Below are positions 1 through 37,007 of a DNA stretch of 37,007 bases, in pieces. The notes under the pieces were generated by a model. It searched no databases and was not told the DNA's origin. It saw only the letters and a program-made list of their open reading frames with translations. Source of the DNA: a virus. A program made the translations under genes and the position numbers. Position 1 is the first letter of the stretch. Each line of letters opens with the position of its first letter. The stretch is taken from IMG/VR virus record IMGVR_UViG_3300027963_000011, positions 1 to 37,007 of that record; one strand, written 5' to 3'.

Positions 1-117
1 CAGGTGTTCGCTCAGATCGTAGACTGCAGCTAATTTTTCAAACCGCGCTTTATGATCTGCCATCATCATATGATACAGGCGCTCTGACGCCTCGATCTGT
101 TTTTGTATGAAGTCCAT
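1..117 (-). CDS. 5' part of small coiled-coil protein (junction copy)
   Basis: This is the duplicated N-terminal part (first 39 codons) of the 66-residue gene at 36797-36997. It is cut by the linearisation point, not by mutation. The ATG is at 117-115 and is preceded on the minus strand by a G-rich ribosome site (GGGGG, four bases before ATG) that lies mostly outside the repeat. The sequence between this gene and the next upstream gene is therefore best read here: a terminator (131-159) and then the acidic gene at 172-423. Confidence 0.85.
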   Translation of the reverse strand, partial: MDFIQKQIEASERLYHMMMADHKARFEKLAAVYDLSEHL

Positions 118-127
118 GTAACCCCCA
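1..127. repeat. Terminal direct repeat, left copy
   Basis: These 127 bases are identical to the last 127 bases of the window (36881-37007). An exact end overlap like this is what an assembler leaves when a circular or circularly permuted genome is written as a line. The left copy holds the start of a small leftward gene whose complete version is at 36797-36997. A genuine short terminal repeat of a linear virion DNA is the alternative. Confidence 0.97.
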
Positions 128-130
128 AAA

Positions 131-159
131 GAAAAACGCGCCAGATCGTCTCTGGCGCG
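131..159 (-). terminator. Rho-independent terminator after acidic gene
   Basis: On the minus strand a perfect 9-bp stem, CGCGCCAGA / TCTGGCGCG (159-151 with 145-137), encloses a 5-base loop and is followed directly by TTTTTC. It sits 12 bases after the stop of the acidic gene and before the small gene that crosses the junction. It should end, or reduce, leftward transcription from the replication block. Confidence 0.85.
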
Positions 160-171
160 CTCATACTGCTA

Positions 172-423
172 TTACTCTACTTCTGCTTCGTCGTCTTCTG
201 CTTCGTCGTCGCAAGCTACGAACTCATCTGCCTCTTCGTCGAAGTAATACGTCACATCATCGAACGAATTGTAAAAATACTCTACATCGTCCTCAACCCA
301 GTACGCATTACCGTCCTCGTCATACTCGACGCCTTCATCGCACTCGTCGCACTCATACTCAAACTCTACTACGTCCTCATCGATTACAACAACGCTGTTG
401 CCAGTGTAAATTGTGATTGCCAT
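172..423 (-). CDS. Hyper-acidic small protein (possible DNA mimic)
   Basis: This is an 83-residue protein of unknown family. Asp and Glu make up 34 of 83 residues and there is no Lys, Arg or His at all, so its charge is extremely negative. Tyr, Phe and Val are interspersed with the acids, and a CDEC pair lies at residues 25-28. The start is well supported: GGAG lies eight bases before the ATG. A strong terminator follows. The composition resembles phage proteins that mimic DNA (the Ocr/ArdA type of anti-restriction protein), but no sequence similarity is claimed. It lies downstream of the metallophosphoesterase, at the end of the replication block. The reverse strand is also open over this stretch, as expected from the biased codons. 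Confidence 0.8.
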   Translation of the reverse strand: MAITIYTGNSVVVIDEDVVEFEYECDECDEGVEYDEDGNAYWVEDDVEYFYNSFDDVTYYFDEEADEFVACDDEAEDDEAEVE

Positions 424-483
424 TTTGATACTCCAAAAGTGTTACGACCACGCCAGTCGCAATACTATTTTAGGTGAAAATGG

Positions 484-1446
484 TTACACTTCAAAGACAT
501 TACCTCTAAAGTAGATCAAGCCAGCGTCTTCATCGAGCACTTCACATAGTTCGGGCGGTAATAGCTTGCCTTTATAGAAAGTAAGTACGGCAAAACCTGA
601 CCGGTGGTTCTTGGGATTATCTTCTGAATAACTAAATTGTTGGCCATTGACGTCCGCCAGTGACCCAGTATCAACACCGTAACGCGTGCCGGTGTAATCC
701 GTCCACGGTGTTACCTTAAGGCTATGCAGGTGGCCGGTCACAATTGACGTGCCGGACTTTAGCGTGTTGTTATAGATCGCGTGAATGCCGTTATGGTATC
801 GATGCTTGATCATACAGTTACCATTGACCATAACCGACATTGAGAATTTCCAGCGCGGGAAATGGTCAAGCAAATTCATACCGACTATGCCCTTAAACCC
901 ATCGCCTACCTGCGCGGCTAGACGCGCATTAAAGCGCTGATCGTGATTGCCCCACGTCCAATGCAGCTTGCTGTTTAATGACGCCGCTTCGATCTCAGAC
1001 AGGCGCTCCTGACACGCTTCGAGTTCTTGCTTAACGTTAGGTGTGGCCTCCCACGTACCGCCAGGCGGGTGACGACTGATCGACGCGCCGTCGAATACGT
1101 CGCCGTTCATCACAATCGCTTTTGGTTTTAATTCTTTTGCAAACAGCACGAACGCGCGGTGCGCGGTTGATACGATGCCAGGCCAGTAATGACAATCACT
1201 AGCAACCATAATCGTGCCGCTGTCGAGTTCAAAATTGACCCGAATGTTGTTTTCAGGTATAGATATTTTAAAATCAGGGCTACGATTACTTGACGCGTTT
1301 AGAATAGTTCCATGTTTCTCTTCTATGCTGCGACGACGGTAATTGATTGCCCGCGCAGTCATGTTCAGCTCTTTGGCCATCTCGCTAACTGACTGAATGC
1401 GACGCCACGCAGCCATGAAGTCTTCGTCCGATATCTTATACGCCAT
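484..1446 (-). CDS. HTH-metallophosphoesterase fusion
   Basis: This 320-residue protein is a calcineurin-like metallophosphoesterase. The metal-ligand motifs are in the usual order: SDCH (D84, H86), NGDVFDG (D116), GNHD (166-169), a later His (H215) and GHLH (238-241). The first ~45 residues form a separate helix-turn-helix-like segment (SEMAKELNMTARAINYRRRS), suggesting that the enzyme is brought to DNA. Such enzymes are phosphodiesterases or nucleases related to Mre11/SbcD; the substrate here is unknown. It has its own likely promoter (TATAAT at 1491-1486). The ribosome site is weak (AAAGACG). It stands apart from the primase gene by about 80 bases. Phosphoesterase: high confidence; DNA substrate: inferred from the HTH only. 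Confidence 0.88.
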   Translation of the reverse strand: MAYKISDEDFMAAWRRIQSVSEMAKELNMTARAINYRRRSIEEKHGTILNASSNRSPDFKISIPENNIRVNFELDSGTIMVASDCHYWPGIVSTAHRAFVLFAKELKPKAIVMNGDVFDGASISRHPPGGTWEATPNVKQELEACQERLSEIEAASLNSKLHWTWGNHDQRFNARLAAQVGDGFKGIVGMNLLDHFPRWKFSMSVMVNGNCMIKHRYHNGIHAIYNNTLKSGTSIVTGHLHSLKVTPWTDYTGTRYGVDTGSLADVNGQQFSYSEDNPKNHRSGFAVLTFYKGKLLPPELCEVLDEDAGLIYFRGNVFEV

Positions 1447-36771: not shown

Positions 36772-36798
36772 ATCCCCTCGTGTGAGGGGATTTTTTTT
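36772..36798 (+). terminator. Rho-independent terminator of accessory operon
   Basis: ATCCCCTC / GAGGGGAT (36772-36779 with 36784-36791) form an 8-bp stem with a GTGT loop and are followed by seven T. It ends the rightward accessory operon 23 bases after the 19-residue gene. The opposite-strand gene's stop (36797-36799) lies in the T-tract. Confidence 0.92.
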
Positions 36799-36997
36799 AT
36801 GTGCGCTCGATAATCTCATATGCGCGTAAACGCGCGCGTAATTCTGATATCTCAGCGTCCCGCTCTGCTAGTTTTTTCTGCAGGTGTTCGCTCAGATCGT
36901 AGACTGCAGCTAATTTTTCAAACCGCGCTTTATGATCTGCCATCATCATATGATACAGGCGCTCTGACGCCTCGATCTGTTTTTGTATGAAGTCCAT
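36797..36997 (-). CDS. Small coiled-coil protein across the genome junction
   Basis: A 66-residue, highly charged helical protein: MDFIQKQIEASERLYHMMMA, then heptad-like EHLQKKLAERDAEISELRAR. It probably forms a dimeric coiled coil; no family. It is the complete version of the gene cut at 1-117. On the circle it lies downstream of the acidic gene and a terminator, so it depends on read-through or its own unseen promoter. G-rich GGGGG precedes the ATG. Confidence 0.8.
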   Translation of the reverse strand: MDFIQKQIEASERLYHMMMADHKARFEKLAAVYDLSEHLQKKLAERDAEISELRARLRAYEIIERT

Positions 36998-37007
36998 GTA
37001 ACCCCCA
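36881..37007. repeat. Terminal direct repeat, right copy
   Basis: This copy is identical to bases 1-127. It carries the start of the junction gene. The exact length of 127 equals a common assembler overlap size, which supports closure of a circle rather than a biological terminal repeat. Confidence 0.97.

Follow-up and report, generated by a model that had tools for sequence, protein, structure and literature searches.

A hyper-acidic phage protein family encoded by a putative moron-like cassette with a conserved 5' leader hairpin

Introduction

Phage morons are single genes that carry their own promoter and terminator and lie inserted between conserved genes (PMC4378225). Their base composition usually, although not necessarily, differs from that of their neighbours, and some of them are expressed from a repressed prophage (PMC4378225). 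Anti-CRISPR and decoration-protein genes are known analogues among the accessory phage genes (PMC4378225), and the DNA-mimic anti-defence proteins include T7 Ocr, ArdA and T4 Arn (PMC7261183). Here we describe a gene for a hyper-acidic protein in a stretch of viral DNA of 37,007 nt (IMG/VR record IMGVR_UViG_3300027963_000011; hereafter the window), together with the signals that surround it and its relatives in other phages.

Results

The acidic gene and its neighbours

Both ends of the window are identical (1..127 and 36881..37007; 127 bp). Because identical ends of this kind are an assembly overlap, the window is an apparently complete circular phage genome, and the cut conceals the gap that separates the acidic gene from the downstream coiled-coil gene. 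The phage encodes a DNA polymerase, a primase-like protein, a terminase and a portal. A gene with a PAPS-reductase domain (PF01507; 3854..4555, minus strand) lies between the polymerase and primase-like genes, and the plus-strand gene 34910..35818 matches PHROG 1392 and has a homologue that is also found near the cassette in L004 and L006-L008. The features of the acidic locus are collected in Table 1; the HTH-like part of the upstream neighbour was read from the sequence.

Table 1. Features of the acidic gene and its surroundings in the window.
Feature	Position	Strand	Details	Basis
Hyper-acidic protein CDS	172..423	-	ATG at 423, stop ends at 172	translation, dN/dS, family alignment, AlphaFold2 (core pLDDT 80-87)
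Layout of the acidic protein			beta hairpin near the N-terminus (aa 3-14) and beta-meander core (aa ~31-72), joined by an acidic linker; tail acidic	
Upstream neighbour, HTH-like N-terminus and calcineurin-like metallophosphoesterase	484..1446	-	320 aa	Pfam PF00149, PHROG 221
Downstream neighbour, predicted coiled-coil protein	36797..36997	-	66 aa; ATG equivalent to position 117 on the circle	
Sigma70-like promoter (predicted)	467..494	-	-35 TTGAAG 494-489, -10 TAAAAT 472-467	scan and conservation
5'-leader hairpin	442..462	-	TTGCGAC/GTCGTAA	covariation, slid controls, covariance model
Ribosome-binding site	431..436	-	TTGGAG	sequence; conserved in relatives
Intrinsic terminator	134..162	-	12-pair stem, T-run	structure; homologues' terminators

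The gene product has 83 residues (MAITIYTGNSVVVIDEDVVEFEYECDECDEGVEYDEDGNAYWVEDDVEYFYNSFDDVTYYFDEEADEFVACDDEAEDDEAEVE), of which 34 are acidic (18 Glu and 16 Asp) and none is Lys, Arg or His; it also contains 14 Phe/Trp/Tyr and 3 Cys. Its calculated pI is 4.05 and its net charge about -35; for its small size it is strongly negative overall, as are the Ocr and ArdA mimics. The net acidic excess of 34 compares with 13 in the runner-up 83-residue stretch over all frames of this genome, and this acidity is far beyond chance expectation for the genome. When the gene was compared with its relatives, substitutions fell mainly in third positions and dN/dS was low (0.05-0.10 in the close group and 0.05-0.14 in the other groups), which supports that it is coding. 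In three close relatives (L003-L005) the frame is intact and both the ribosome site and the terminator are kept. These data bear out a previous sequence-only reading of the locus, which had placed a real gene at 172-423 (it lies on the minus strand) and had described its 34 Asp/Glu of 83 residues without a basic residue, the aromatic residues spaced among them, a good ribosome site and a dedicated terminator; both signals proved to be conserved in relatives. An open reading frame on the opposite strand (103-477, plus) was dismissed as a gene, since the complements of GAN codons contain no stop and its openness is a by-product of these codons.

A broad phage family with conserved charge

We found the family by profile and pattern searches of phages in a metagenome collection. 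Inspection of 80 phosphoesterase-bearing loci together with a profile search revealed that the 18 whose enzyme is most similar carry an acidic gene in synteny, and these genes form three sequence groups with identities down to ~36-38%. A search from one group and degenerate DNA patterns of the core motif, which reads roughly Y[DE]xDGxA[YW]W[FV]DEExxVWY[YF][DE]EExDDW[YFV]E, then yielded many more members. In an alignment of 30 members, positions 35, 46, 62, 63, 64, 66 and 72 were acidic in all of them and no core position carried Lys or Arg. At most of these acidic positions the charge was kept and the residue was not, Asp and Glu being interchanged. The aromatic pattern was strongly conserved. 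The acidic protein is a member of a previously unnamed, broad phage family of hyper-acidic, aromatic-rich proteins with a predicted beta-meander. The earlier reading had held that absence from all relatives of the phage would count against it; the gene is instead conserved in relatives.

The family profile matched 16 of 24 long records, once in each, and the eight records lacking a match were phosphoesterase-bearing contigs. The same profile found no match in 14 annotated phage records picked for related capsid, phosphoesterase or primase genes; as it matches its targets in the long records, this null comes from a working search. Searching annotated phages by tblastn with the acidic proteins produced no matches either, but this is not evidence of absence because BLAST masks low-complexity sequence; degenerate DNA patterns and profile searches therefore replaced it for this family. 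Bacterial genome contigs contained 387 stretches with the pattern, none of them confirmed by tblastn. One Clostridia MAG (L152) encodes a protein of 272 aa that has a hydrophobic segment and matches the motif in its Asp/Tyr/Trp-rich tail, a resemblance that is probably convergent. As the family is low-complexity and likely masked in ordinary BLAST, decoy-like proteins of this kind are probably missed routinely.

Structure and database searches

No family matched the acidic protein in Pfam, NCBIfam and PADLOC at E up to 10 or in PHROGs at E up to 1, so that the profile search proposed earlier as a check produced neither an unrelated family nor any other. WW and OCRE domains gave no Pfam match, and in a PDB sequence search the OCRE matches were weak and at chance level (E 0.5 or worse). 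AlphaFold2 models had moderate confidence (mean pLDDT 68.8 and 69.7; core 80-88) and predicted an antiparallel beta-meander of three to five short strands. Reading the sequence on the model places the acidic residues in clusters in the turns at both strand ends and the aromatic residues inside the strands. Ocr is alpha-helical. Structure prediction, which the sequence-only reading had proposed as a check for a DNA-like charge surface, gave a core of higher confidence, and the predicted fold is not the helical one of Ocr.

A PDB structure search with the model gave nothing at E<0.001, and the best viral structure matches were uncharacterised proteins of uncultured phages (E 0.008). The best VIA scores were Z 4.7 (CPAP beta-meander, 43 residues, 3.4 A) and 3.6, which is too weak for naming a fold. 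Ocr and ArdA were absent among the Foldseek and VIA matches, although this absence does not exclude either. An EF-hand-like calcium loop (DxDG..E) was also considered and rejected, because the models place the DxDG turn in beta hairpins and not between helices.

The leader hairpin and the expression signals

The promoter-like element of the acidic gene has a 16-nt spacer between the -35 and the -10 that starts with TGTAA; scan matches of such quality are at chance level alone, but this element is conserved across lineages and contexts. The last codons of the upstream HTH-phosphoesterase gene 484..1446 (TTTGAAGTGTAA) overlap its -35. About 5 nt past the -10, at the predicted 5' end of the transcript, begins the leader hairpin, and all groups but the most divergent share a common leader that consists of TGT[CA]A-N11-TA[AG]NAT, the hairpin, a T-rich stretch and the ribosome site. 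In an alignment fitted to the covariance model, 91.7% of cells were paired and the covariation was 0.52 versus 0.34 in shuffled alignments (0/500 as high), and an independent MAFFT alignment gave 91.7% and 0.50; slid controls were 22-54% paired. The fold test on single sequences was modest (mean z -1.5) and the support for the hairpin is comparative.

The covariance model of the leader (R1) matched the window at 428-488 with E 1.5e-8. Furthermore, each positive genome had a single match, which always lay directly before the acidic gene (15/29 records). In 446 kb of loci the model had 36 matches, again only before the acidic gene, some of them in groups left out of its construction. A recognisable copy of the leader was not found in the most divergent members (L115/L131, L154/L159-L161, L134-L136 and the thyX-linked fusion), and an Rfam search of the window gave no matches. 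Strong terminators stand 3' of the acidic gene in nearly all lineages, with stem sequences that are unrelated between lineages. The family is missing from standard libraries; the leader provides a family-specific handle that finds further members from DNA alone.

Genomic contexts and probable mobility of the unit

The acidic gene was found in several contexts. It lies behind an HTH-phosphoesterase gene in the window lineage and in the 61-kb contigs L009 and L026, and behind a 48% identical phosphoesterase at the end of the lysis region in L105, L107, L111, L120, L122 and L129, so that these contexts span different genome backbones. In L099-L103, L113, L115, L121, L127, L131 and several of L153-L163 it stands behind the major capsid gene, where a coiled-coil or HNH-like gene sometimes intervenes. 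A standalone context on the strand opposite to the surrounding genes was seen in L137 and in the more divergent L134-L136. In L106, L109 and L119 the acidic aromatic motif lies mid-way in a 186-aa protein encoded between HNH-like and thyX-like genes, which may be a fusion of the acidic domain. The HTH-like plus metallophosphoesterase family is itself very common in viral contigs, with 369 confirmed loci at several genome positions. The 66-aa coiled-coil protein (xFIQKQIEASERLY...) was seen in L006-L009, L026, L052, L067, L068, L073, L083 and L153-L163, and it adjoins the acidic gene whether the latter follows a phosphoesterase or a capsid gene, with opposite gene order, which suggests that it is a second accessory companion of the acidic cassette.

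Across these contexts the promoter-like element, the 5'-terminal RNA hairpin, the ribosome site, the acidic gene and the terminator are conserved as a block. The units of L120 (phosphoesterase context) and L121 (capsid context) share 85% DNA identity only from -72 to ~ +20 past the stop, and their flanks are unrelated. In addition, L052, L067, L068 and L073 have an empty site in which the phosphoesterase stop is followed after 9 nt by the coiled-coil ATG, as compared with 366 nt in the window; the unit thus separates two genes that are direct neighbours in related phages. Since the unit is conserved as a block, occupies several unrelated positions and has empty-site relatives, it is very probably a moron-like accessory cassette, in which the acidic gene with its own signals would be self-contained and mobile. 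For any one of the empty-site lineages, loss of the unit is an alternative to insertion, but movement is favoured because the unit occupies multiple genomic positions. Conservation and structure agree with a single coding region that has its own terminator and a predicted promoter. The GC content of the unit (0.455; 0.49 in the upstream gene) is not clearly different from that of the genome (0.479), although morons often differ, and this counts against the cassette. So does the recurrent placement of the unit behind phosphoesterase or capsid genes, with which it may be functionally linked.

Discussion

Function of the acidic protein

The acidic gene very probably belongs to the accessory mobile cassettes, a class that includes many anti-defence genes, and negative charge is the conserved property of its product. 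Conservation of charge over residue is as expected of an electrostatic decoy, and we therefore tentatively propose, at somewhat less than even chances, that the protein acts as a nucleic-acid decoy against a host protein. The idea of DNA mimicry, which the sequence-only reading had drawn from the composition, is a plausible candidate. Host RNA polymerase would transcribe the unit independently of the phage programme, and the 5' and terminator hairpins would protect a short, stable mRNA; protection of mRNA by a 5' hairpin was reportedly described in E. coli by Emory et al. in 1992 (cited in PMC3997798). Strong expression of this kind would supply a large dose of the protein. The protein itself would be a small meander of antiparallel beta strands, with its aromatic residues in the core and its acidic ones in the turns at either strand end, and it could occupy the nucleic-acid-binding surface of a host protein; candidate targets are nucleases, CRISPR and other defence effectors, and RNA polymerase. 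It is somewhat less likely still that the family represents a new class of beta-meander nucleic-acid mimic, spread on a mobile cassette with a co-travelling 5' RNA hairpin as a general device for anti-defence or host takeover.

Among the analogues, anti-CRISPR and decoration proteins would mark the two leading functional alternatives. In many relatives the acidic gene is directly 3' of the major capsid gene, and accessory capsid decoration genes have been described as possible morons (PMC4378225); the protein might accordingly be a virion assembly or capsid-associated factor, that is, a small acidic protein that acts as a chaperone or as decoration and covers basic surfaces of capsid or packaging proteins. 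This is unlikely, as the window and many relatives carry the gene far from the capsid, in the replication or lysis region or alone, and it is wholly missing from phages whose capsids are 45-74% identical. A slightly lower likelihood attaches to a role as partner or regulator of the HTH-phosphoesterase or the 66-aa coiled coil, for instance as an inhibitor that mimics the nucleic-acid substrate of the enzyme. The acidic gene does adjoin the phosphoesterase in several lineages and backbones, and it adjoins the coiled-coil gene in capsid as well as phosphoesterase contexts, but most phosphoesterase homologues have no adjacent acidic gene, 8/12 long phosphoesterase contigs have none anywhere, and many acidic genes have no phosphoesterase nearby. 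Moreover, the enzyme is near neutral (pI 7.2) and so has no obvious basic surface, and for this reason we dropped the idea that the acidic protein neutralises a basic phosphoesterase.

The leader palindrome could also be read as a DNA operator, comparable to those of repressor-controlled anti-CRISPR operons, with expression as a regulated early burst. The inverted repeat lies where the transcript is predicted to start, a normal place for an operator, and symmetric operator changes would also appear compensatory; however, mismatches in the distinct stems are mostly G-U (27) with few A-C (4), a count from related, not independent, sequences in a model alignment that leans to pairing, and there is no dedicated regulator gene that goes with the unit in every context. 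The excess of G-U favours RNA pairing, and we regard the operator as improbable. A metal-binding or generic acidic protein with a target unrelated to nucleic acids would account for the many clustered carboxylates and the DxDG turns, yet the models place those turns in beta hairpins, not between helices as in EF-hands, and the aromatic pattern is strongly conserved, which leaves this the least probable of the alternatives.

Comparison with known systems

As in morons, the unit is a single gene that brings a promoter-like element and a terminator of its own and separates genes that are neighbours in relatives, and it is patchy in distribution with several insertion positions. It differs from them in carrying a conserved, covarying 5' hairpin along with the gene, in a base composition that is not clearly foreign and in carrier phages that are not known as temperate. 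The protein shares with anti-CRISPRs, which are small, often acidic, moron-encoded and sometimes found among head genes, these general features, but no similarity to them was found and the unit has no recognisable associated repressor gene. Tyr/Trp-rich short antiparallel strands and tight polar turns recall the OCRE and WW domains; in contrast to these, the turns are acidic, the strand period is another one and no profile match is significant. With Ocr, ArdA and Arn the protein has in common its small size, its extreme acidity with interspersed aromatic residues and its encoding by an accessory phage gene, whereas it has no sequence match to them, a predicted beta-meander instead of a helical fold and no basic residue at all. 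T7 Ocr (PMC7261183) is, by this analogy, a functional model for the acidic protein and not a relative. Should the members of this family be nucleic-acid mimics, they would, with their beta fold, represent a solution unlike that of Ocr and ArdA, and new inhibitors of bacterial defence systems could be drawn from them.
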